Made by a program: the position numbers and the translations under genes. The notes beneath the pieces were generated by a model. That model was given only the letters and a program-made list of their open reading frames with translations. It did no database searches and was not told the origin of the DNA. This document shows positions 575-15,363 of a stretch of DNA of 42,320 nt, piece after piece. The first letter of the stretch is position 1, and the number at the start of each line of letters is the position of its first letter. The stretch covers positions 1 to 42,320 of the forward strand of contig CALDUF010000074.1 in the NCBI GenBank assembly GCA_937923515.1, given 5' to 3'. Origin of the DNA: an uncultured Flavobacteriaceae bacterium (GTDB lineage: Bacteria > Bacteroidota > Bacteroidia > Flavobacteriales > Flavobacteriaceae).

Positions 575-2984
575 ATAACTTATATTTTAAGGCTAAAACA
601 AGGTTTCTGCCTGGTGCTGAGATACCTGAAGAATAAGGCCTGTAGCGTTGGTTTGTAATATTTTCTAAAGCAGCAGTTAACGTAGTGTTTGTATTGACTT
701 TATATTGTGTTCTAAAATTTAAAGTGTACCAAGATGGAGAAAACGGATTGCCATTAGCATCAGCTGCATAAATAAAGTCCTTCACAGTTTCTGAAGGTGC
801 TAGTTGGTTAAACGATAGTTCACCATTATAATTAGCAAAAGCATCTAAGGTTAAGTTATTGTGCTTCCAAACTAAATGCGTATTCCCAAAATTAGGGGCA
901 ACGTGTCGTATAGGCACTTCAATATTATCATTTTCTTCTGTACCGCCAATAACACTGTATTGCGATAAAAATTCTAAATGTTTTGAAAGTAATAATTTCA
1001 ATCCAACTTCAAAACCATAAATCCAAGCTTTTGATGCATTTTGTATGGATTGCACATTGCTTAATTCGCCATCATACAGTATTTCTGTTTCACCATTTAA
1101 ATTAGAATCGCGTCTTACAAGGGCGTTGTCCAAATAGGTGTAATAGGTGCTTACATCCAAAATTAGTTTTTTATTAAAATCAAGTTTTAAACCAACTTCA
1201 CCTCCAAAGGCGTACTCTGGCCTTAGTGCCTCGTTGGGTACAACAACAGAGCCAGGTTCAGAATCAAATACTTTACCAATATCGTCAATATTTGGAGCTC
1301 TAAATGCCGATGCTGTATTTAGTTTCCATTGTATAGTTTCATTTGGAGACCACGTTATTCCTGCAGTACCTGTAAGTGCACCGGCTGTGTTTTTAGAGGT
1401 TTGAAATGGGAGATTTAAAAACCTATTATTTTCTATAAAATTTGCCTCAGAGCTTACACGATTAAAGCGTAAGCCCGATTGTAATACAAACTTAGTACTA
1501 GGTTTATACTTTAAGTTTGTATAAATGGCTGCCGATGCCCAAGTAGCACCATTTGGATATCGCGAAACTGCATCTGTAACAGTTCCTGTGGTTATATTTT
1601 CGGTAGTTCCTACAGAGCCTACTTTATTAAACACATATTCGCCACCGTAAAATAGTTTCGTTTTTTCACTTAGTTTTTTTTCAAAATCTAGATTAAACGA
1701 ATAGGCATCTACAGCTTCTTCTCTTATTCTTCGATCCACAGTTTGAAAATCTCTATCTATCCTACTTTCTTTAAAATTTTGATACGCAAGTGTTGCTTTT
1801 ACCTTATCGTATAAATTAGAGCGACTACTAAGTTTTGTAATTTGTAAATTAGACATAAACCACTGCTGTGGCCCGTAATTCCATTCAGCAGAGCGTAGGG
1901 TATCACCACGAAAACGAATAAGTCTGTCGTATCTTGGAATGTCAGACGATTTAGAAAAATGCACGCCTAAATCAAAACTTAAGTTTTTACGAGGTTCAAA
2001 CTTTATTTTTTGAGTTAAGTTTAACTGATTATAACCAGAAAACCGTTGTACTCTTGGATTTGGATTGGAAACAATAACGTCAGTACCATTATTAGAAACT
2101 ATAAATTCATTCCTTAAATAATCATCGGGTCCATGCGCTCCCATTTTTAAATCATTAAAATCGGTGTAACTTGCACTGGTTAAAACCCCCCATTTTTTAT
2201 ACCCTAAGTTAATATCAAAATGGCCTGTTTTTTCATCACTTGCAGAAGCGTATCTTACAGTTGTATTTGCTTTGACTAATAGTGAATCTGTATAAGATAA
2301 CTGCGGATTTTTAGTATAGAAACTCATAACGCCACCAATAGCATCACTACCATAAATTACAGAACCCGAGCCTAATGTTACTTCGGTATTTTGAATTGCG
2401 AATGGGTCTACGGCAATAACATTATGAATGTTACCACCTCTAAAAATAGCATTATTCATGCGTACACCATCAACTGTTATGAGTAATCGGTTTGTAGAAA
2501 AACCTCTAATCATTGGGCTTCCACCACCTAATTGGCTTTTTTGCACAAATACTGCACCAGTATTTTGCAATGCATCAGCACTGGTTTGCGGGTTAATAAA
2601 CTCTATAATAGCAGCATTACTACTTACTATTTTTTGTGTAATATCTTTTTTGTGTTGCTCGAATTTTGAAGCAGAAATAACAATTTCATTCAACCCCTGT
2701 GTATTGGCATTTAAGTACACAACACCAGTTTCTACAACTTTAGATTTAAGTAAAGATGTAGTAATGTGCGATAAATGTTGAAAATAGAGCGTATCTGTCG
2801 CTGCAAATTTATCTAAATTGGCAACACCTTTAAAGTTAGTGATGGTGCTTTTAGTTTTATTTGCATCGAATATAGCAACACCAAAAATAGGTTCTTCGGT
2901 AATTGCATTTAGAACTTTTATGTTTTGCGCTTCTACTACTTTAGTTAGTAGTAAAAACAATAAAAGCATATAATTGCGACTCAT
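573..2984 (-). CDS. TonB-dependent outer-membrane receptor, heme/hemoglobin-receptor-like
   Basis: 803 residues. A signal peptide (1-19, ending VVEAQ) is followed by a carboxypeptidase-regulatory-like domain (about 21-95), a plug (about 100-225, with MIRGFSTNRLLITVDGVRM and SVIYGSDAIGGVMSF) and a beta-barrel ending in the hydrophobic LVLALKYKL. It should import a bulky ligand across the outer membrane using TonB energy. Residues 561-568 read FRAPNIDD and 583-590 read PNEALRPE, which resemble the FRAP...NPNL box of hemoglobin/heme receptors; this makes a heme-type ligand plausible but unproven. Its start lies 3 bases from the stop of recO, so it is probably co-transcribed with recO-porZ. Iron, cobalamin or a peptide are other possible ligands. 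Confidence 0.9.
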   Translation of the reverse strand: MSRNYMLLLFLLLTKVVEAQNIKVLNAITEEPIFGVAIFDANKTKSTITNFKGVANLDKFAATDTLYFQHLSHITTSLLKSKVVETGVVYLNANTQGLNEIVISASKFEQHKKDITQKIVSSNAAIIEFINPQTSADALQNTGAVFVQKSQLGGGSPMIRGFSTNRLLITVDGVRMNNAIFRGGNIHNVIAVDPFAIQNTEVTLGSGSVIYGSDAIGGVMSFYTKNPQLSYTDSLLVKANTTVRYASASDEKTGHFDINLGYKKWGVLTSASYTDFNDLKMGAHGPDDYLRNEFIVSNNGTDVIVSNPNPRVQRFSGYNQLNLTQKIKFEPRKNLSFDLGVHFSKSSDIPRYDRLIRFRGDTLRSAEWNYGPQQWFMSNLQITKLSSRSNLYDKVKATLAYQNFKESRIDRDFQTVDRRIREEAVDAYSFNLDFEKKLSEKTKLFYGGEYVFNKVGSVGTTENITTGTVTDAVSRYPNGATWASAAIYTNLKYKPSTKFVLQSGLRFNRVSSEANFIENNRFLNLPFQTSKNTAGALTGTAGITWSPNETIQWKLNTASAFRAPNIDDIGKVFDSEPGSVVVPNEALRPEYAFGGEVGLKLDFNKKLILDVSTYYTYLDNALVRRDSNLNGETEILYDGELSNVQSIQNASKAWIYGFEVGLKLLLSKHLEFLSQYSVIGGTEENDNIEVPIRHVAPNFGNTHLVWKHNNLTLDAFANYNGELSFNQLAPSETVKDFIYAADANGNPFSPSWYTLNFRTQYKVNTNTTLTAALENITNQRYRPYSSGISAPGRNLVLALKYKL

Positions 2985-3707: not shown

Positions 3708-6046
3708 TACCTTACTACCATTAGTTTTATTGCTCTAGTTTCAAAACTATCAAGATCTGATAGCATTACAAGATATACACCAGAGGCTACGATATTATTG
3801 GCAAGGTTTTTACCGTTCCAATACGCTGTACCACCATCTATTTCTAAATTAAAACCACGGAATCTTTGGTTTGTTCTAGATTGTGCTTCGGCAACTAGGT
3901 TTCCTTCAATATCTGTAATTTTTATATTTACATTTTCAGGAAGATCTGTAATTTTCACTTTGTCTTCCACAATATCAAAACCTGGTCTCACAGGATTAGG
4001 GTACGCATGTGCTCTAGAAAAATCTTCTCTAGTAATTGTGCTTCCAGATTTAAATGATACCAAACCTCTTTCAGTACCAATATACACTAGTCCGTTAATG
4101 TTATCTATAGAAATGTCATTTACATCGTTTGATGGTAATGGCGAATTATCCGTTGTAAAGTGAAAGATTGTATTTTGACCGTTTGGCGATAAGTAAAATA
4201 CACCTGCGCCTATTGTAGCTACCCATTTGTTATTAGAGCCATCAACTTTAATATCTGATATAAATTGTTCATCAAATAATTCTCTAGCAACCCCGTCTTC
4301 TTCTATAATTATTTCTTCTGCCCTTGGGTTGTCGTCGTCTAGAAAATTTGATGGATTGAATAGAATTCGGAGTCCGCTAGGAGTTCCAATCCATAATTGA
4401 TTTCTTCTATCAAGTGCTAAAGCTTTAATATCAAACGTTGGTAAATTTTGCGACTCTTCGCTAATGTTATTCATACGTTGTCTGCCATTACTTTCATTAA
4501 AGGCTATAACACCGTTAAAGTGCGAGCCAATAAATTTTGTACCCTCACTATCAATAACTACATCGCTAAAACCACGGTCATCACTTAAACCATCAGGAAT
4601 AATTTCAGAAAAATCAAAAGACGACCATCGGTTATTTTCAAACTTATTCAATGGTCGTTGTACTCTACCATTCATAAGCCACAATGCTCCATCTGAATCA
4701 TAGGTTCCACCTAGGGTGAGATTAATACCATTAAAAAAGGACTCTAAAGTACTGTTGTTTTCATCAAAAAGGCCTACTACTTCGTTGTCATTTAGTTCTA
4801 TCAATCCTGTAAAAAAAGAACTGATAAATACCTGACTTGGATTTAACGGGTTTATAGCTATATGCGATAAGTTTCTTGGATTGTCAACTTTAGCACTTAT
4901 AGAATCATAAGGTATGTTGAGCCATTCGCCGCGTTTTAGATGGCTAATACCAGAGTTTCTAATACCACCTCCAAAATTAAAAAACCTAGAATAACCACCA
5001 GAAACCATCCATAATTCTCCATTAAAGTTTCGTATTTTAAACACTCTATTTAATAAAGGGCCGTCTGGAAGAATTTCTTCAAACGTTGTTGGGTTTGTTG
5101 TGTTTACAGATAGAACACCAAAGTCTTCAGAACCTATGTATATAGTGTTGGCATCTATAGAGGCAGCACTAAAGGCTGTGTCGAAATTACTTTCTGCAAC
5201 AGAAGTTTGAAATGTTAAGTTGAAATTTGTATCGTAAATAAACACATTAGTATTGGTTGTTATCAACGTACTGTTATCTACAGATTTTAGACCGATTATA
5301 TCATTATTATAAGTAAATAGATTAACCAAAGCATCATTTACAACTTCATAAATTGTTCTATTAGTTCTTGCTGTATACAGCCTGTTGTTATTTGAAAAAA
5401 CCCCTGCAAAATCACCTGTAGCTATGGTATCCCAATTCCTAAAATCTATTAAATTAGGATTAGAAAGGTCAGCTTTTTTTAAGCCATTGTTGTTTTGGCA
5501 AGCGGCGTAAATATTACCGTTTAAAATGGATACTTGTTTTACTGTAATTTGAGATCCTCCATCTCCTATAAAAAAGGTGTCTCTAAATTCTAATCTTTCT
5601 AAATCGAAAACTGAAATTCCAAAATTGGTAGAAATATAAACGAGGTTTTCATTGATAAAAAAATGATTTATTCGGCGGTCGTTTGACGGTATTGTTAGTT
5701 TATTAATAATGTCTACCACTGCCAAAACCTGATCGTCATTATCAAACACAATTTCTATTAAACCACTTTCGTAACCTATAATAAGTAATTCGTATAGTTC
5801 ACTGTAAATTATAGTAGATATGAGTTCTCCCGAAAGCCCATCTACAGTTGTTATTTCTGTAATCTCATTGGTTTCAAGATCTAAACTAAATACGGTGTTT
5901 TCGCCAGCAGCAAAAATTTTATTATTTCCCTTAACGACATCTTTAATATTATTATATGAAAAATGCCCATTCCATGATTCTGAAAAATCTTGGCTAAATT
6001 GAAGTAGCGGAAATAATATAAAAACGAGTAAAAACAGTTTCTTCAA
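3707..6046 (-). CDS. porZ: PorZ-like T9SS component, beta-propeller with sorting tail
   Basis: 779 residues. A signal peptide (1-18) is followed by two-component-regulator-type beta-propeller repeats (about 20-670), with recurrent segments such as ALDRRNQLWIGTPSGLRIL and DNINGLVYIGTERGLVSF. The C-terminal domain (about 690-779) starts HAYPNPVRPG and ends IKLMVVR, a type IX sorting-like domain. PorZ belongs to the outer-membrane attachment complex of T9SS and, in Porphyromonas, delivers anionic LPS to the sortase PorU. The adjacency and one-base overlap with recO support the call. The molecular role in Flavobacteriaceae, where A-LPS differs, is inferred from the family. Confidence 0.85.
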   Translation of the reverse strand: MKKLFLLVFILFPLLQFSQDFSESWNGHFSYNNIKDVVKGNNKIFAAGENTVFSLDLETNEITEITTVDGLSGELISTIIYSELYELLIIGYESGLIEIVFDNDDQVLAVVDIINKLTIPSNDRRINHFFINENLVYISTNFGISVFDLERLEFRDTFFIGDGGSQITVKQVSILNGNIYAACQNNNGLKKADLSNPNLIDFRNWDTIATGDFAGVFSNNNRLYTARTNRTIYEVVNDALVNLFTYNNDIIGLKSVDNSTLITTNTNVFIYDTNFNLTFQTSVAESNFDTAFSAASIDANTIYIGSEDFGVLSVNTTNPTTFEEILPDGPLLNRVFKIRNFNGELWMVSGGYSRFFNFGGGIRNSGISHLKRGEWLNIPYDSISAKVDNPRNLSHIAINPLNPSQVFISSFFTGLIELNDNEVVGLFDENNSTLESFFNGINLTLGGTYDSDGALWLMNGRVQRPLNKFENNRWSSFDFSEIIPDGLSDDRGFSDVVIDSEGTKFIGSHFNGVIAFNESNGRQRMNNISEESQNLPTFDIKALALDRRNQLWIGTPSGLRILFNPSNFLDDDNPRAEEIIIEEDGVARELFDEQFISDIKVDGSNNKWVATIGAGVFYLSPNGQNTIFHFTTDNSPLPSNDVNDISIDNINGLVYIGTERGLVSFKSGSTITREDFSRAHAYPNPVRPGFDIVEDKVKITDLPENVNIKITDIEGNLVAEAQSRTNQRFRGFNLEIDGGTAYWNGKNLANNIVASGVYLVMLSDLDSFETRAIKLMVVR

Positions 6047-6124: not shown

Positions 6125-7165
6125 TTAGGCAGTGTTTGTAAATAATTTTTTATGCCTTAGTTTTCGGTTTTTAGACAAATAGCGCAATTCTATAAAATAC
6201 CAAGATACTATTGAAGCTATAAACACCAAAATTAACACTAATAAGCTAATTAATACAGGATTGTATTTATGAAATAAATTATAATGCACAAAAACTTGAA
6301 TTATGGGGAAATGATAAATATATATACCATAAGTAAAGTCGCCATATTTCCCAAAATTGTTTAGCAATTCAAAACTGTAAGCGATATAAAACACCATAAA
6401 ACCATAAGTAATTGGTTTTAAATAGTGCGTTTTAAGTATGTACTGCTCAACAAAAAATAGTGCTAAGCATGGAATGATGATATAGTGCTTTTGTTTTAAA
6501 AGAACATTGAAATTACGATAGAACATTACGCCCGTAATAAAAAAGGCCAAAGCACCAGGAAGTTGCTTTGCAATTTTATACATATCTATACTTAAAAAGT
6601 AATTAAAATAGCCTACAGAAGTAACGTACACTAAAATACTTAAGAGATAAACATTAATTTTTTTGGAGTCTATTAAATAGTAGAAAACAGGTAATAGTAA
6701 ATAAAAGGCTTCTTCTATCTTAATAGTCCAAAGTGCACCATTAACAGCACAAATTAAATTGCCATTAAAAACCCCAGGTAAACACGGTTCTATATAATTT
6801 TGAAAAGATAAATTTGCTATTAGATATTTCCAAAACTGGGCATCAAAAAAATAATTTGAAACTGAATGGGAAGAAATAAAACTAAATAAAATAGCGCAGA
6901 GTAGAATTAAAAAGAAATATGCAGGCACTATTCTTTTAATTCGTTTTGTAATATAACTTTTAAAATTTTTGTTGCTTTCGTAGCTCTTAGCAATTAAAAA
7001 GCCACTAATTACAAAAAAGCCATCTATAGCTAAGCGCGTATTAAAAAAACCTAGATAAGGTTGAAACACTTTTACTTGACTTAATTCTATTAAGTGCGCA
7101 AGTGCTACTGTAAGTGCAAATACTACCCTTAAAAAGTCAAAATTATTTGTATTGATTTTAGTCAC
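6125..7165 (-). CDS. Acyltransferase family 3 membrane protein
   Basis: 346 residues with about ten hydrophobic helices. The N-terminal region has the family-3 (OafA/YrhL type) landmarks: DFLRVVFALTVALAH with the conserved His in helix 1, and AIDGFFVISGFLIAKSY. Such enzymes transfer acetyl or other acyl groups to surface polysaccharides, lipids or peptidoglycan from the inner membrane. The gene lies 78 bases upstream of porZ on the same strand. No glycosyltransferase or polysaccharide cluster is next to it, so the acceptor is unknown. A proline/glycine-rich cysteine loop (EPCLPGVFNGNLICAVNGALWT) sits between helices. Confidence 0.85.
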   Translation of the reverse strand: MTKINTNNFDFLRVVFALTVALAHLIELSQVKVFQPYLGFFNTRLAIDGFFVISGFLIAKSYESNKNFKSYITKRIKRIVPAYFFLILLCAILFSFISSHSVSNYFFDAQFWKYLIANLSFQNYIEPCLPGVFNGNLICAVNGALWTIKIEEAFYLLLPVFYYLIDSKKINVYLLSILVYVTSVGYFNYFLSIDMYKIAKQLPGALAFFITGVMFYRNFNVLLKQKHYIIIPCLALFFVEQYILKTHYLKPITYGFMVFYIAYSFELLNNFGKYGDFTYGIYIYHFPIIQVFVHYNLFHKYNPVLISLLVLILVFIASIVSWYFIELRYLSKNRKLRHKKLFTNTA

Positions 7166-9784: not shown

Positions 9785-10249
9785 TTAATTTTTAATAGCC
9801 TTTAAAAGTGCTAAAACGTAGCCATAGTGTAAACCCTCGTGAATTACTATAAACTGTAATGCTTCATCAATAGTAGTTAGTGTGTTTCCTGTTGTAGATA
9901 CTGTGTAAGCATTGTAGGTTTTAAAAACACTATTACTATAATCAATCTTAGTTTGTTCAACTGTGCTTAGTAATAGGTTTTTTATATCATTAACGTCTTC
10001 TTGAGATATATCGCCGTTTGGCTTACTGTCTTTTCTGTACTTATTTATTAATTCATCAGATAGTGAAGATTCTAAACCTGACAACTTATAGGCTAAAAGT
10101 TGATGCGACACCACGGTGTGTGCAATATTCCAGATGATATTGTTATTGAATCCTTCAGGTATTTTATTTAAATCTTCTAATGTGTTATTCTCAATTATAT
10201 CTTTAAAAATACTTCTTGTATTTTGTAAAACCTTAAATGTAAAATCCAT
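9785..10249 (-). CDS. DinB-like (DinB_2) four-helix protein
   Basis: 154 residues in the DinB/YfiT four-helix-bundle fold. Potential metal ligands are visible: His near 44 and 49 in the IAHTVVSHQLLAYKL segment, and HEGLHYGYV near the C-terminus. Members of this superfamily are metal-dependent thiol transferases or uncharacterised damage-inducible proteins, and the substrate here is unknown. The gene is divergent from the ArsC-like gene with only 57 bases between the two starts. Confidence 0.75.
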   Translation of the reverse strand: MDFTFKVLQNTRSIFKDIIENNTLEDLNKIPEGFNNNIIWNIAHTVVSHQLLAYKLSGLESSLSDELINKYRKDSKPNGDISQEDVNDIKNLLLSTVEQTKIDYSNSVFKTYNAYTVSTTGNTLTTIDEALQFIVIHEGLHYGYVLALLKAIKN

Positions 10250-10682: not shown

Positions 10683-10761
10683 AGTGCCAGTTATAAAAAC
10701 TGTTCTTAAAACCCCTTGACCTGTATTTTGAAGTTTAGGTGTTACATTTTGAAGTGTTGAG
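10683..10761 (-). pseudogene. Decayed middle fragment of a GIY-YIG nuclease gene
   Basis: Read on the minus strand, this stretch aligns with codons 30-55 of the intact GIY-YIG gene at 13528-13833, matching at 62 of 78 positions (about 79%) by my hand count, with one extra G. It has an in-frame TAA at the position of codon 38 and a +1 shift at codon 45, so it is dead. It lies between the ArsC-like gene and the first gene of the cassette-like block. It is collinear with, and nearly complementary to, the codon 1-26 fragment at 13349-13453. Confidence 0.75.
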
Positions 10762-10785
10762 GTTATATAAGTATTGTAAAAAATT

Positions 10786-11532
10786 ATGAGAAAAAATATT
10801 AAAAAATTCTTAATAGCTAAATTTTTATTTTTCAGTATTTCTATTTTAAATGCTCAAAATGAATTTAATGATTATTTTATATTTAAAAATGGAGACACTA
10901 TAAAATGTAATATTAGTAAAGTAAAAAATCAAAATATTTATTTTTCGATATCCCCCAATAATAAATTTGTACTGAAAAGAGAGATGTATAGAGATTTGAA
11001 AGCTAGAAAATCGACACTACCAAGCTCAAAAAAGAAATATTATATCCCTAAGAATTTAAACTTTTATAGCTGCAATGACATACATATTTCTTCTATAACT
11101 AAGCATAAATTAAAATTGAACAAAATTGAAAAGCCAAAAGATGGATACGCTCATATATACTTTTATAAACCAAATGCAGGTATGGAACCAATTGGAAGTT
11201 TTATAGTTAGAGAAGGAAATACCAAAATAGTAAATTTAAAAAGTAATAGTTATTTTCTAATAAAAGTAAAAGCTGAGACTAAGCATACATATTATGTAAA
11301 AAGAAATCTATTTAGTGAAGATGAAGTAACTATTACAGCTAAAAACAAAGAAATTTATTACATAAAAGCTTTTGATGTCGTATGTCAAGGTGCTAATATT
11401 GTGCATAATGGGAATATGACAATGACAAATAGCGGTGGAAATTGTGGCAGAAACATCTCTATATATGAAGATAAATATCCTGAATTACAATTAATGTCAA
11501 TGTACAAAAAACCTAAAACATTCAATAAATAA
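10786..11532 (+). CDS. Secreted protein with DUF2846-like C-terminal region
   Basis: 248 residues. A signal peptide (about 1-23, ending ILNAQ) leads to a basic segment beginning FNDYFIFKNGDTIKCNIS, a form common in Bacteroidota exported proteins. From about residue 115 the sequence PKDGYAHIYFYKPN, then GSFIVREGNTKIVNLKSNSYFLIKV, resembles DUF2846, a small beta-rich domain of unknown role. Four cysteines occur in the mature part. It is the first gene of the three-gene cassette-like array, is very AT-rich, and has no recognisable TAnnTTTG promoter of its own. Confidence 0.6.
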   Translation: MRKNIKKFLIAKFLFFSISILNAQNEFNDYFIFKNGDTIKCNISKVKNQNIYFSISPNNKFVLKREMYRDLKARKSTLPSSKKKYYIPKNLNFYSCNDIHISSITKHKLKLNKIEKPKDGYAHIYFYKPNAGMEPIGSFIVREGNTKIVNLKSNSYFLIKVKAETKHTYYVKRNLFSEDEVTITAKNKEIYYIKAFDVVCQGANIVHNGNMTMTNSGGNCGRNISIYEDKYPELQLMSMYKKPKTFNK

Positions 11533-11538
11533 CTTTTT

Positions 11539-11666
11539 ACAACATCGTATATAATTTATTGCTAGTTCTAGCTTACTTACGAAAATCCTCGCGGATTTTC
11601 TATTCGGTTTTTATTTGCTAAGTTACGTGCACAAACCACGCAACAAACCATATACAACAATGTTGT
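11539..11666. repeat. Fold-back (attC-like) site 1 of the cassette array
   Basis: This 128-bp imperfect palindrome starts ACAACAT and ends ATGTTGT. Inside, GTATAT (11547-11552) pairs with ATATAC (11650-11655). Nested hairpins include GCTAG-TT-CTAGC and a perfect 8-base pair GAAAATCC / GGATTTTC (11581-11588, 11593-11600) with loop TCGC. The right end carries GTTGTGT, the exact complement of ACACAAC at the left end of site 2. It begins 7 bases after the stop of the preceding gene. The architecture resembles integron attC sites, but the core differs from RYYYAAC/GTTRRRY. Confidence 0.55.
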
Positions 11667-11695
11667 GTGCAGGCTTGGAAAAATTTGGAGTAATA

Positions 11696-12490
11696 ATGAA
11701 ATTAATAACACTATTTTTACTAATGTTTTGCTGTTCTTGTTCTGGACAAAACAAGGAATTTCCATATCCAAATCTTAAGGGAAACCCTAAAGTAGTCGGT
11801 CCTAAAATTGTTGACTCTGGCTTTCCAATGCCCATTGCCATTTTTTCAGATAGTACAAGAACGGATGTGTATTATAGTGGATGGACAAACTATAGTGATT
11901 TTTATATTGCTAACCCTGACGACCCCAATTCACCCATTATAGTTCATGAAAAAGTTCTAGCTAAGAATATAACTTTTGACTCTGCTGCTACTGAAGTTGC
12001 AAAAAAATACGGGTTTGATAATTTTGAAATTGACCTAATAAAACAAAGCCCATTTTATCTTAGCTATGGTTTGACCATTGCACATGGTTTGGCAAAAACA
12101 GAATTGAATAATAAAACTGCAACTGGTATTATCCAAGGACAAAAATTAGATGATAATTCCGTATTAATTGCACTAACCATTTTACAAGATGATTTATTTG
12201 AAAAATGGGCTGGAATCAATATTTTGCTCATGCAAATGGGCTACATACAGACATTTAAAACGCTACCACAGAAAAAAATAGAAATTGCTGTAAATAGCTC
12301 TGCTAGTGAAAAACTAGCATACTTTGAAAGTGTTAATTCAAATGCACAAAAAGCAATATCAAATCAGTCCTTAGAAAAAGGAAAAATAAATGACCAAATA
12401 ATGAAGATGTTGTCTGATCAAGGGCAATTAGATGTTATTCAGTTCCAATGGGACATGAATAATGATATTTTATACGGTAGCGGTTGGTAG
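11696..12490 (+). CDS. Putative lipoprotein of unknown function (cassette gene)
   Basis: 264 residues from the ATG at 11696, chosen because it opens on a lipoprotein signal (ITLFLLMFCCSCSGQNKE). An upstream extension would encode the fold-back site. The mature part contains a segment VVGPKIVDSGFPMPIAIFSDS, then mixed alpha/beta sequence with no family I recognise, ending DMNNDILYGSGW. It is probably anchored to a membrane by the cysteine of the lipobox. It is the second gene of the array, flanked by fold-back sites on both sides, with no promoter of its own seen. Confidence 0.65.
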   Translation: MKLITLFLLMFCCSCSGQNKEFPYPNLKGNPKVVGPKIVDSGFPMPIAIFSDSTRTDVYYSGWTNYSDFYIANPDDPNSPIIVHEKVLAKNITFDSAATEVAKKYGFDNFEIDLIKQSPFYLSYGLTIAHGLAKTELNNKTATGIIQGQKLDDNSVLIALTILQDDLFEKWAGINILLMQMGYIQTFKTLPQKKIEIAVNSSASEKLAYFESVNSNAQKAISNQSLEKGKINDQIMKMLSDQGQLDVIQFQWDMNNDILYGSGW

Positions 12491-12528
12491 ATATTTAGCT
12501 TCGTCAAGTTTAATAACTAAAAGCCAGT

Positions 12529-12655
12529 ACACAACATTGTATAACCACAATTACGGCTGACTCGACTACCTCAGAATCCACTCGGAAATGCTAAAGCCTG
12601 TGCTAAACAGGAGATTAACTTATATTAATCCGTAACTGACGGTCATACGCAACCT
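12529..12655. repeat. Fold-back (attC-like) site 2 of the cassette array
   Basis: It begins with ACACAAC (12529-12535), then GTATAACC (12539-12546) pairs with GGTCATAC (12641-12648) with one mismatch, and TTACGG (12551-12556) pairs with CCGTAA (12630-12635). An inner hairpin CCTGT-GCTAA-ACAGG lies at 12597-12611. The nested-arm layout is the same as site 1, though the loop sequence is unrelated. The left end is very similar to site 3 (shared GTATAACC, then CAATTA). Confidence 0.55.
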
Positions 12656-12674
12656 AAAAACCAACCTAAAAACA

Positions 12675-13268
12675 ATGGTAAAAACATTAAACGATTTAAC
12701 TAAAGAGGATTGGAATACACTTTTCCCGATTGAATTGGTAGACCATAACCCTGAGTGGAAAAACATCTACAAAAACGAAAAACAGCGGATTCTAGGAAAG
12801 GTAGGACAAGAAAAAATATTGAGAATTGAGCACTTTGGCAGTTCGTCAATTGCATCAATAAAATCTAAACCTTATATCGACTTAATGATTGAAATTCCAA
12901 AAGATTTATTGTTTGACAAACAATTAATCAACCAATTTACGGAATTAGGTTATTCTCATTTCAAAGTTCCCGAGAGAGAAAATATTGCGGAGTATTCATC
13001 ATTTGGAAAGGGATATAATATTGACGGAACAAAAGCACAGATTTTTCACATTCACATGTGTCCGAAAGAAAATGCAATGTGGAAACAAATAGGCTTTAGA
13101 AACTTTCTAAACGCAAATAAAAAACGAGCAAAAGAATACGAAAATTTAAAAATTGAATTGGCGTCTAAGTTTAAAAACGATAGAGGTTCGTATGTCCTTG
13201 GAAAAACAGATTTCATCAATGAGACATTGCAATTAATAGAAAAAAAGTCTATACAAAACAATGTATAA
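12675..13268 (+). CDS. GrpB family (UPF0157) nucleotidyltransferase-fold protein
   Basis: 197 residues. The family core is clear: RIEHFGSSSIASIKSKPYIDLMIEI (about 51-75), a nucleotidyltransferase-like GS...D(L)xIE pattern, followed by the GrpB-type HIHMCP segment and FRNFLNANKKRAKEYENLK. GrpB proteins are widespread accessory genes, often acquired horizontally; biochemical roles are poorly defined. It is the third gene of the array, and its stop codon lies inside the left arm of fold-back site 3, as is common for genes in integron cassettes. Confidence 0.85.
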   Translation: MVKTLNDLTKEDWNTLFPIELVDHNPEWKNIYKNEKQRILGKVGQEKILRIEHFGSSSIASIKSKPYIDLMIEIPKDLLFDKQLINQFTELGYSHFKVPERENIAEYSSFGKGYNIDGTKAQIFHIHMCPKENAMWKQIGFRNFLNANKKRAKEYENLKIELASKFKNDRGSYVLGKTDFINETLQLIEKKSIQNNV

Positions 13269-13330
13269 CCTCAATTAGGTTGGATTCGATTTGTCCGAAT
13301 CTGCTGGTACTACTAAAATCTATACTAATT
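13253..13330. repeat. Fold-back (attC-like) site 3, probably incomplete
   Basis: ACAAAACAATGTATAACC at 13253-13270 matches the left end of site 2, and the stop of the GrpB gene is inside it. AATTAG (13273-13278) pairs with CTAATT (13325-13330), and GATTCG pairs with CGAATC around 13283-13301. A right-hand GGTTATAC arm is not found before the truncated GIY-YIG fragment begins, so the site may be cut off. Confidence 0.45.
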
Positions 13331-13348
13331 ACAAAAGTTTGCGTGCTT

Positions 13349-13453
13349 TTACCAATTTCTGACTTTTATACAATCCCGCAACCAAGGATCTTGCGAAGTA
13401 CCAACATAAAACCTAGCAAAAGCTTCTGAATATATAATATAAACGTAGTACAT
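13349..13453 (-). pseudogene. Truncated GIY-YIG nuclease gene (codons 1-26)
   Basis: On the minus strand, the ATG at 13451-13453 starts a frame identical to the intact GIY-YIG gene through codon 26, after which unrelated codons lead to a TAA at 13349-13351. Only 34 codons remain. The homology breaks at 13377, within the codon for the likely catalytic Arg26. The DNA is 99% identical to the intact copy, because it lies in the 155-bp direct repeat. The missing codons 30-55 survive in diverged form at 10683-10761, beyond the three-gene array. Confidence 0.8.
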
Positions 13454-13531
13454 AAATGAAAAAAGTCTAACATTTCTGTTAGACTTTGTAAGCTCCTCAG
13501 GCTGGGCTCGAACCAGCGACCCTCTGATTAA
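13377..13531. repeat. 155-bp direct repeat, copy 1
   Basis: It is identical to 13757-13911 except for one base (T at 13427, C at 13807), offset by 380 bp. It spans codons 1-26 of GIY-YIG, the hairpin terminator and the 3' half of tRNA-Asn. Confidence 0.95.
13458..13487 (-). terminator. Duplicate of the tRNA-Asn terminator
   Basis: AAAGTCTAACA / TGTTAGACTTT around a GAAA loop (minus strand) with a U6 tail. It is an exact copy of the element at 13838-13867, here downstream of the tRNA pseudogene. Confidence 0.85.
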
Positions 13532-13572
13532 TCCCGCACGTGCGGGACTCTAACCAACTGAGCTAGTTTGCC
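13493..13572 (-). pseudogene. Broken tRNA-Asn copy with a 16-bp palindrome in the anticodon arm
   Basis: The D-arm and the whole 3' half match the intact tRNA-Asn at 13873-13946. The 5' acceptor strand is GGCAAAC, which cannot pair with the 3' strand CTGAGGA. The ten bases CATCTGACTG (5' anticodon stem through first anticodon base) are replaced by the perfect palindrome TCCCGCACGTGCGGGA (13532-13547). It cannot give a working tRNA. Its 5' half also encodes the last 14 residues of the GIY-YIG protein and its stop codon (13528-13530). Confidence 0.85.
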
Positions 13573-13833
13573 TGATAATACAAAACTAGGGTCAATCATT
13601 TTTAATATTAAAGTTTTACTCTTTTGCTTTTTTATAAATTTTTCAATTTGTTCAGTGTCACTTCTAGTGGTTCCAGCTAAAAAGACTGCTTTTAAAACCC
13701 ATGGTCTGTATTTTGACGTGTAGGTGTTAAATTTTGATGTGTTATGCTTTTCTAAGCGCAACCAAGGATCTTGCGAAGTACCAACATAAAACCTAGCAAA
13801 AGCTTCCGAATATATAATATAAACGTAGTACAT
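13528..13833 (-). CDS. GIY-YIG nuclease with tRNA-derived C-terminus
   Basis: 101 residues. The GIY-YIG core is present: YYVYIIYS (2-9), FYVG (15-18), the catalytic-type Arg26 in WLRLEKHN and the metal-binding-type Glu in EQIEKFIKKQK (61-71). This is the small single-domain class (YhbQ/UvrC-N-like). Residues 88-101 are encoded inside a broken tRNA-Asn copy: LAQLVR comes from the D-arm and VPHVRD from a 16-bp palindrome. The ATG lies just past the terminator of the intact tRNA-Asn, leaving no room for a normal promoter, so expression probably relies on read-through. Function may be DNA nicking or homing; this is inference. Confidence 0.85.
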   Translation of the reverse strand: MYYVYIIYSEAFARFYVGTSQDPWLRLEKHNTSKFNTYTSKYRPWVLKAVFLAGTTRSDTEQIEKFIKKQKSKTLILKMIDPSFVLSGKLAQLVRVPHVRD

Positions 13834-13911
13834 AAATGAAAAAAGTCTAACATTTCTGTTAGACTTTGTAAGCTCCTCAGGCTGGGCTCGAACCAGCGAC
13901 CCTCTGATTAA
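13757..13911. repeat. 155-bp direct repeat, copy 2
   Basis: Partner of 13377-13531; this copy holds the 5' codons of the intact GIY-YIG gene and the 3' half of the functional tRNA-Asn. The homology resumes in the D-arm (13922-13939 matches 13548-13565) after the ten-versus-sixteen-base replacement. Confidence 0.95.
13838..13867 (-). terminator. Terminator of tRNA-Asn
   Basis: Eleven-base arms 13842-13852 and 13857-13867 with a GAAA tetraloop on the transcript and a six-base U run. It sits 5 bases past the tRNA 3' end and ends 4 bases before the GIY-YIG ATG. Confidence 0.9.
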
Positions 13912-13946
13912 CAGTCAGATGCTCTAACCAACTGAGCTACTGAGGA
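13873..13946 (-). tRNA. tRNA-Asn (GTT)
   Basis: 74 bases. Acceptor TCCTCAG pairs with CTGAGGA, discriminator G at 13873; D-arm GCTC-AGTTGGTTA-GAGC; anticodon arm CTGACTGTTAATCAG gives anticodon GTT; T-arm GCTGGTTCGAGCCCAGC. CCA is not encoded. A terminator follows and a TAnnTTTG element lies upstream. A damaged copy follows 380 bp downstream on the same strand. Confidence 0.97.
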
Positions 13947-14016: not shown

Positions 14017-15363
14017 TTATTTTGAATTTATCCATTCACTTATTGCTTTGTAGATGTCGTTTCCGTTTGCAAATAAAACCAGACCTATTAAAATAAAAAA
14101 TCCTACCATTTGGGCATACTCCATAAACTTGTCTCCTGGCTTTCTTCCAGACACCATTTCATAAAGTAAAAACATCACATGACCACCATCTAAAGCAGGT
14201 ATTGGTAATAGGTTTAAAACACCTAACATAATAGAAAGAAATGCTGTTAAATACCAAAAGGCTTGCCAATTCCATTGCGCTGGAAACATTTGTCCTATAG
14301 CAGCAAAACCACCTATTTGTGATGCGCCTTTTTTGGTAAAAATATATTTAAATTGTGCTAAATAATCTTTTACTTCCCAATAGGCTTGATTAAAGCCTCC
14401 TGAGATACTTTCAGCAAAGGTATATTCTCTAGTGCTGTATGTAATATAATCTTCGTCGGTTACACCTCTATAAAAGCCCATTTTGTTTTCCTCATCTGGC
14501 GTAATTACTAAATTTATATTTTCATTGTTTCTAGTTATTTCTAAAGCAAACTCTTTACCTGCATTATTTTTGATGCCATAGGCGTAATCTGAAAAATACT
14601 CAACTTTTTGTCCGTTTATTGCTATAATCTTGTCTTCTGGACGTAAGCCAGCTTTGTCTGCAGGTGAGCCAGAATCAATAGAATCTATATCGAAAGGATA
14701 ACGCGCCTCTAAGGCAGGTAAATCTCCTGCTTCAAATAATTGTGTGCCTATGTCTTCGGGTAGTTCTAAAACTTCTACAACACCATTTGTATGTTCTACT
14801 TTTATGTTTTTAATATCACGAAACATTAAGTATTTATTGATAGGAATGGTAACATCCTCAATAGCTTCTTCATTTATCGAAATAATTTTATCACCTTGTT
14901 GAAACCCATAGTTTTCTAGAGTTTTGGTTACCCCATATCCGTATTTGGCGCTATCTTTTGTAACGTAGTTGGTACCCCAAACCGATAACATGATAATAAA
15001 TAAAACAATGGCCAATAAAAAATTAACAGTTACACCACCTAGCATAATAATTAAGCGTTGCCACGCAGGTTTAGAGCGAAACTCCCAAGGTTGTGGCGGT
15101 TTAGCCATTTGCTCGGTATCCATACTTTCATCTATCATACCAGCTATTTTTACATAACCTCCTAGTGGTAACCAACCTATACCATACACGGTTTCTCCAA
15201 TTTTCTTTTTAAATAATGAAAATTTCACATCAAAAAATAAGTAGAATTTTTCTACTCGAGTTTTAAATAACTTAGCAGGAATAAAATGCCCTAACTCGTG
15301 TAATACTACTAGTATGGAAAGGCTCAAAAGTAATTGAGCTGTTTTTATTATGAATACTGACAT
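14017..15363 (-). CDS. rseP: RIP metalloprotease RseP (site-2 protease)
   Basis: 448 residues, normal for RseP. The zinc motif HELGH is at 22-26 in the first membrane helix, and the second active-site motif LDG at 391-393 lies in LLPIPALDGGH. One clear PDZ segment (about 215-285, DSGSPADKAGLRPEDKIIAINGQ) follows a more degenerate one (about 145-200). The protease cleaves membrane-embedded substrates such as anti-sigma factors and cleans signal peptides from the inner membrane. It is monocistronic here and is preceded by a short region shared with the divergent SCO-like gene. Confidence 0.95.
   Translation of the reverse strand: MSVFIIKTAQLLLSLSILVVLHELGHFIPAKLFKTRVEKFYLFFDVKFSLFKKKIGETVYGIGWLPLGGYVKIAGMIDESMDTEQMAKPPQPWEFRSKPAWQRLIIMLGGVTVNFLLAIVLFIIMLSVWGTNYVTKDSAKYGYGVTKTLENYGFQQGDKIISINEEAIEDVTIPINKYLMFRDIKNIKVEHTNGVVEVLELPEDIGTQLFEAGDLPALEARYPFDIDSIDSGSPADKAGLRPEDKIIAINGQKVEYFSDYAYGIKNNAGKEFALEITRNNENINLVITPDEENKMGFYRGVTDEDYITYSTREYTFAESISGGFNQAYWEVKDYLAQFKYIFTKKGASQIGGFAAIGQMFPAQWNWQAFWYLTAFLSIMLGVLNLLPIPALDGGHVMFLLYEMVSGRKPGDKFMEYAQMVGFFILIGLVLFANGNDIYKAISEWINSK

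Follow-up and report, generated by a model that had tools for sequence, protein, structure and literature searches.

Small GIY-YIG nuclease genes seated beside tRNA genes in the Bacteroidota suggest a family of selfish elements

We report the analysis of a small GIY-YIG nuclease gene that lies between an intact and a broken copy of a tRNA-Asn gene in the DNA of an uncultured Flavobacteriaceae bacterium; the whole stretch analysed, 42,320 nucleotides of contig CALDUF010000074.1, is referred to here as the window. Relatives of this gene adjoin tRNA genes of many isotypes, commonly together with a damaged copy of the neighbouring tRNA, which suggests an undescribed selfish gene family living on tRNA genes across the Bacteroidota. 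The reading that we favour, at a probability of roughly 55%, is that the window carries one member of a Bacteroidota-wide family of free-standing endonuclease genes that parasitise tRNA genes and would work like SegB of T-even phages.

On the minus strand the locus is preceded by an rseP-like M50 peptidase gene (14017-15363, identified with Pfam). The intact tRNA-Asn (anticodon gtt; 13872..13946, minus strand) was called by ARAGORN and scores 71.6 bits against the Rfam tRNA model; the end of the tRNA gene is marked by a terminator-like hairpin followed by a run of T on the minus strand (13842..13867, minus strand; inverted repeat I1). Eight bases past this hairpin in the window sequence stands the ATG of the nuclease gene (13528..13833, minus strand), which encodes 101 amino acids with the C terminus ..GKLAQLVRVPHVRD and matches Pfam PF01541 at E=1.7e-12. 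Its 3' end overlaps a broken tRNA-Asn copy (13492..13565, minus strand) that retains tRNA positions 8-25 and 36-75, and whose anticodon side has ten bases, CATCTGACTG, swapped for the 16-bp palindrome TCCCGCACGTGCGGGA (13532..13547, no strand assigned). The initial annotation of this DNA had described a tRNA-Asn followed by a 101-residue GIY-YIG gene that ends inside a broken tRNA-Asn copy, and ARAGORN, Pfam and the sequence confirm this order; the claimed replacement of ten tRNA bases by the palindrome is likewise borne out by alignment of the copy with the intact tRNA. The same annotation placed the last 14 codons of the gene within the copy, where the overlap stands and the count does not, about 12 codons lying in recognisable tRNA sequence.

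The broken copy is predicted to fold into something other than a cloverleaf and escapes Rfam even at E<=1, a search in which the intact tRNA is detected. Past it lies a second copy of the terminator-like hairpin (13462..13487, minus strand). The unit between the two tRNA copies measures 0.38 kb; the GIY-YIG gene is its sole gene and no integrase gene lies inside it. Intron homing was considered and rejected, as none of the three Rfam matches found between window positions 10000 and 15000 at E<=1 belongs to an intron family. The 14-mer core of the palindrome, allowing two mismatches or fewer, occurs once in the window against 0.01 copies expected by chance, and a search of the source genome (88% complete) gave no second exact copy.

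A 155-bp repeat, 99% identical, comprises the tRNA 3' half, the terminator-like hairpin and the first GIY-YIG codons, and it therefore reveals a second, dead GIY-YIG copy downstream of the broken tRNA. The 5' part of this copy (13377..13453, minus strand) falls within the repeat, and the remainder (10684..10771, minus strand; 78% identical DNA) contains a stop. The two pieces part at 13376/13377, the alignment breaking at query bases 244/245, and are separated by a 2.6-kb block (10772..13376, plus strand) whose three ORFs comprise a DUF2846-like one that falls below the cut-off, a GrpB and an unknown one. It seems, then, that this array formerly contained a pair of nuclease genes. Within the block (10772-13376), two genes lie between inverted repeats (11657-11676/12521-12540 and 10774-10787/11529-11542) and resemble small mobile gene cassettes. 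The source genome also contains a second family member, at tRNA-Pro; there the intact tRNA lies downstream of the gene, and the upstream copy is partial, with no TCC...GGA palindrome scored.

The residues Y5, Y16, G18, R26, H30 and E64 are invariant among 66 aligned members of the family, and we take these to be the catalytic residues of the GIY-YIG domain, which is the sole domain of the window protein, Pfam giving no second one. The AlphaFold model of the protein has a pLDDT of 93, and its nearest solved structures are UPF0213 and SLX1/HIGLE proteins (1zg2, E=9.7e-15; 7cq2, E=1.8e-8; also 7wme and 6seh). Among the 20 closest of the pairs listed for the tRNA-Asn clade, nine had a usable dS and eight gave dN/dS values of 0.08-0.17; one nearly identical pair of the clade gave 1.35. 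Judged by these ratios, the nuclease gene of this clade is under purifying selection. For the window protein, PHROG gave no match at E<=0.01, and tblastn against 50,697 phage records gave none at E<=1e-3; carriage of close relatives by phages or plasmids was rejected for lack of any match.

The tRNA-derived tail of the gene behaves differently from its body. In six loci that were not chosen by their tails, fourfold sites are identical at 67/77 positions of the tail versus 35/105 of the body. A larger set gives 1182/1281 versus 375/989 and is biased, its loci having mostly been retrieved by the tail, so that the six-locus set is preferred. With the fourfold sites of the tail nearly frozen and those of the body not, the tail is kept as DNA. 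That it is conserved for its protein was rejected on the same fourfold sites and on the occurrence of tail DNA outside any GIY-YIG frame upstream of tRNA-Asn. Across the family, the gene terminates within tRNA-derived DNA in 31 of 100 cases, against 0 in the control; 13 of the 31 belong to tRNA-Asn, and part of those 13 come from tail-chosen loci.

The distribution of the family was surveyed in 198 Bacteroidota genomes chosen by completeness alone and not for the trait. Relatives at E<=1e-7 are present in 52 of them, at 77 places besides the window's own two, and form 63 arrays. Four arrays at contig edges were left out; 51 of the other 59 lie within 300 bp of a tRNA on the same strand (46 with the tRNA upstream, five with it downstream), and 55 lie within 531 bp of a tRNA or tmRNA. 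The eight arrays beyond 300 bp comprise three with a tRNA at 370-428 bp, one with a tmRNA at 531 bp (Rfam) and four with no tRNA or tmRNA in the stretch examined. For the 71 genes with a tRNA at most 300 bp upstream, the median start is 49 nt past the tRNA, and in the loci inspected closely the gene directly follows a terminator-like hairpin. From these arrays a general plan emerges of tRNA copy, nuclease gene and tRNA copy, in which one tRNA is intact and the other broken. Two loci show other arrangements. One (L169, genome G448) has two tandem members (1308-1553 and 1696-1941, minus strand) behind a tmRNA (2076-2436, minus strand) in place of a tRNA; the other (L197, genome G413, Belliella kenyensis) has members with a tRNA-Asn tail at 3755-4060 and 6753-7058, 3 kb apart, and no same-strand tRNA in the 9.5 kb examined, as if the unit had departed from its tRNA.

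The suggestion that the element recurs elsewhere proved correct. The 26-mer formed by the tRNA D arm and the palindrome is found exactly in 32 stretches of named genomes, mostly Bacteroidota, and relatives of the gene adjoin many other tRNAs, with paralogues beside tRNA-Phe, Ser, Pro, Arg, Thr, Asp and Met genes in 15 genomes to which named loci belong. Two of the hosts are metagenome-assembled genomes (MAGs) labelled Chlorobiota and one is a MAG labelled Thioalkalivibrio, which may be wrongly binned. The 32 loci, selected by the exact 26-mer, cannot gauge how often the gene carries it; the palindromic copy terminates the GIY-YIG frame in 17 of them and does not in 15, contig edges hiding some. 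In 13 of the 32 palindromic tRNA-Asn loci there is no nuclease match in the stretch examined, although at least two of these (L010 and L017) do contain the end of a GIY-YIG frame that the contig edge truncates.

Protein lineages tend to favour a tRNA isotype of their own. On a tree of 74 columns, with the tail excluded, 89 labelled rows and 47 of 106 forks left open, isotype changes number 25 versus 49.6 after shuffling, and none of 200 shuffles gave so low a value. This association is loose, since five changes are required for tRNA-Asn and five for tRNA-Asp. The window protein falls in a clade of 26 rows (SH-aLRT 95) whose 20 labelled rows are all associated with tRNA-Asn and whose hosts range over Flavobacteriaceae, Chitinophagaceae, Bacteroidales, a Chlorobiota MAG and the Thioalkalivibrio-labelled MAG. 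The initial annotation had proposed tRNA-Asn as the target; the family as a whole is not confined to it and sits at many isotypes.

A broken copy of the linked tRNA itself accompanies 48 of 54 comparable arrays, and in 38 of the 54 at least one copy bears a TCC...GGA palindrome with arms of at least 5, as do 58 of 85 copies overall. The control of 28 tRNAs without the gene, taken from L042-L071 (the window's genus) and L120-L200 and none of them matching the family HMM, yielded two short partial matches and no palindromic copy; the random background of 144 in 3000 pieces was drawn from the control loci themselves and is therefore an overestimate. The palindromes, reported at 14-20 bp, replace a single strand of a tRNA arm, and the site of replacement is shared within an isotype across host families: between GAG and TTAA in Asn, between GTCG and AGTCTCG in Gly and Asp, between CATA and CAGG or CGAAG in Met and between GGTTC and CTGG in Phe, among others. 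The break was first assigned to the anticodon arm, which is right for the copy in the window and wrong for many Asp, Gly and Phe loci, where it falls in the T arm. An insert-blind search (GTTAGAG, 12 to 24 free bases, TTAATCAGAGG) of 397 genomes of the window's taxonomic family returned nine matches in six genomes, and all nine have exactly 16 free bases that form exact or near palindromes of one type.

Copies upstream of the intact tRNA retain its 5' half, and most downstream copies retain the 3' half with the hairpin that follows it, usually without the 5' acceptor strand. An intact tRNA at one end with a damaged one at the other is what the arrays of the family present, as had been foreseen for the window; that the damaged copy marks the far end is true here and not throughout, since elsewhere it also lies upstream of the intact tRNA, and some damaged copies have no nuclease gene within the stretch examined. 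In three loci (L012, L019 and L022) palindromic first halves of tRNA-Asn stand upstream of the intact tRNA-Asn, and in two (L019, at 240-500 and 950-1050 with a period of ~79 bp, and L020) such first halves with the palindrome are in tandem; none of these four loci gave a nuclease match in the stretch examined.

Filled and empty tRNA-Asn sites had been anticipated in close relatives, and within the genus they do alternate. All 12 genus genomes, the source included, have the tRNA-Asn; its sequence is the same in ten, and the other two each carry two base changes. In each of the 12 it stands behind an apparent rseP end, confirmed as an ORF for the window and one congener (L052) only. The nuclease gene is at this tRNA-Asn (E<=1e-10) in four of the 12 (G000, G006, G009 and G011) and was not found in the other eight, one of which (G008) has a contig that stops ~180 bp past the tRNA. 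A tree of the upstream 1.35 kb groups the empty G004 with the filled G006, with the filled G011 adjacent. In G011 the sequence past the broken copy matches that of G004 and G002, both empty, and runs on into a shared tRNA-Arg-like stretch, which was called as tRNA-Arg in G011. The patchiness within the genus could also reflect losses. Tandem copies number three in G009, five in G580 and eight in G184. At a given locus the terminator-like hairpin behind the intact tRNA is similar to the one behind the broken copy, and both resemble those of empty relatives, which points to local duplication and not to a terminator borne by the element.

Two further features of this site deserve record. The T stem of the intact tRNA-Asn is altered on both strands in G009 (G009:C28:45396-45470, L053) and in G007 (L052), and the broken copies of G009 retain the genus-typical T stem, unlike its intact tRNA; these are either fossil copies or the result of a tRNA 3' half imported from outside. 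In the same congener G007 (L052/L054, G007:C12:806779-818131) this tRNA-Asn has a tyrosine-integrase gene (Pfam E=1.3e-17) behind it and a 68-nt partial copy of itself at a distance of 8.2 kb, which is probably a conventional island occupying that seat. Elements that integrate into tRNA genes resemble the present unit in having an intact tRNA and a partial copy at the far end; the latter differs in its size of ~0.38 kb without an integrase, in its palindromic copy and in a nuclease gene that overlaps the copy.

The closest functional parallel is SegB, a GIY-YIG enzyme which, according to PMC13096335, cleaves inside tRNA genes in vitro and is required for tandem amplification of tRNA-Tyr, probably by recombination between the tRNA 5' end and the segB 3' end. 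The same paper, together with PMC2988022, describes segB as widespread beside phage tRNA genes of various isotypes, and the former also reports that SegB-driven tRNA amplification shields phage T6 from Septu. The two systems share a GIY-YIG gene at tRNAs of various isotypes and outside introns, a gene 3' end homologous to the tRNA and tandem amplification of tRNA and nuclease together (PMC13096335 and PMC2988022). They differ in that the Bacteroidota family is chromosomal, single-domain, SLX1-like and isotype-tending, with a putative cutting activity, and in that its spare tRNA copy is broken by palindromes. By its sequence, the window protein does not belong to the Seg family.

It is the shared seat, the 3'-end homology and the amplification that lead us to propose a SegB-like action with isotype-linked targets. 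The putative enzyme would cut or nick the DNA of its own tRNA gene, and recombinational repair by way of the tRNA-derived 3' end could then copy the unit into empty tRNA loci and amplify it in tandem. One tRNA copy would stay intact because the cell needs it; the spare copy would be killed by insertion of the palindrome, which destroys the cloverleaf and perhaps the cutting site too. Expression of the nuclease may come from weak read-through of the tRNA terminator. We infer the cutting, the transfer and the origin of the palindromes alike from comparison of sequences. The tRNA linkage in genomes not selected for it, the broken copies of the linked tRNA set against the control tRNAs, the purifying selection and the tail preserved as DNA speak for this reading too; the isotype-linked lineages and the alternation of filled and empty sites support cutting and copying into empty alleles indirectly. 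Several points weigh against the SegB-like reading. Besides possible losses within the genus and hairpins that point to local duplication, they include the palindromic tRNA-Asn loci lacking a nuclease match, the four arrays without a tRNA or tmRNA in the stretch examined and the looseness of the isotype link. The adjoining intact tRNA should be cut as well, unless cutting of the donor is inefficient or the site reaches beyond the tRNA; inefficient donor cutting is reported for free-standing GIY-YIG enzymes in PMC13096335. Further, the single-domain protein is, on sequence comparison, nearer to SLX1/UPF0213 than to the seg enzymes. SLX1, HIGLE and UPF0213 proteins provide its best matches in sequence and fold among solved structures; the differences are that Pfam detects the GIY-YIG domain alone, the seat beside tRNAs and, in part of the Bacteroidota family, the tRNA-derived C-terminal tail.

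This kinship lends some weight to a different account, doubtful in our estimation, in which the nuclease mobilises or makes the palindromes. An SLX1-like, structure-specific enzyme would nick hairpins or cruciforms, TCC...GGA sequences would replace tRNA arms and other hairpins, and the tRNA seat would be mere storage. RAYTs are HUH/Y1 nucleases linked to REP palindromes, and the likeness to them lies in short scattered palindromes that are commoner in genomes with a given nuclease family; here the nuclease is GIY-YIG and not HUH/Y1, and the palindromes of 14-20 bp replace tRNA arms. A tentative version of the idea, to which we give no greater credence, envisages, across the phylum, an SLX1-like GIY-YIG nuclease that lives on tRNA or tmRNA genes and would spread TCC...GGA palindromes in exchange for one strand of a tRNA arm, as a GIY-YIG counterpart of RAYT/REP, with isotype-specific editing of spare copies, the edited copy being immune and the host tRNA indispensable.

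Counts over whole genomes bear on both versions. TCCCG-N6-CGGGA occurs 2135 times in the 198 genomes versus 582 for the reversed control, and the median excess is 12 in the 52 gene-bearing genomes versus 3 in those without the gene (p=4e-10, kinship ignored). Permutation within families gives p=0.001 for 142 genomes, which are not independent beyond the family; one family was divided into its two genera, and 56 of the 198 genomes were dropped as belonging to families without contrast, two gene-bearing ones (G456 and G582) among them. The excess over the control, and its rise with the gene, would fit a palindrome-making nuclease, as would the presence of different palindromes at one site of one locus (L121/L187 and L171). 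In G580, of the window's family, the palindrome of the tRNA-Phe copy is one scattered in its intergenic-looking repeats, which again accords with this account; by eye, TCCCGA..TCGGGA also occurs inside other repeats of that genome (L201-L220), some apparently at the centres of longer imperfect inverted repeats. Yet G436 and G570 hold 101 and 72 palindromes without a gene match (E<=1e-7), G485 has the gene and no TCCCG-N6-CGGGA, and the source genome has the gene and six such sites. Within the window's clade, moreover, the palindrome is nearly identical in most hosts, G534 excepted, which counts against this account too. A palindrome exclusive to the element was rejected, TCCCG-N6-CGGGA palindromes being found phylum-wide and their interior varying from locus to locus; the genome-wide counts indicate instead a wider feature of the phylum that meets the GIY-YIG family in the tRNA copies.

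We regard it as unlikely that the gene is a passive hitch-hiker, trapped long ago in tRNA loci that duplicate themselves and kept for repair, with the spare copies decaying and gathering palindromes. The terminator-like hairpins are duplicated along with the tRNA part, palindromes are found in other repeated non-coding DNA, and for some broken copies the stretch examined contains no nuclease gene, all as such an account would have it. Chance trapping, however, sits poorly with a family most of whose members adjoin tRNAs of many isotypes and whose clades tend to track isotype, with gene-free control tRNAs that lack palindromic copies in all 28 cases and with the patchy presence in the genus. 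A defensive role, in which transcribed broken tRNAs distract tRNA-cutting toxins or arrays amplify a tRNA under attack with the nuclease as amplifier, is highly improbable, for although the tRNA amplification of T6 by SegB against Septu is a precedent (PMC13096335) and upstream copies keep the tRNA 5' half, downstream copies usually lack the 5' acceptor strand and the broken copy in the window has a non-cloverleaf fold unseen by Rfam.

Among the matches listed from a library of open-access papers, nothing concerns tRNA-seated GIY-YIG genes of Bacteroidota. If the SegB-like reading is right, the family would be a large and apparently undescribed group of selfish nucleases, present in roughly one in four of the Bacteroidota genomes surveyed (52/198), for which essential tRNA genes and, in one case, a tmRNA serve as seats. 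Parasitism of tRNA genes in the manner of SegB would then extend from phages to bacterial chromosomes, and this would account for the clustering of broken tRNA copies and for small GIY-YIG ORFs whose tails are encoded by tRNA sequence. The isotype-linked lineages make the cutting hypothesis accessible to small proteins and short DNA substrates, and the family may, if this reading holds, offer a handle on the spread of tiny palindromes in Bacteroidota genomes.
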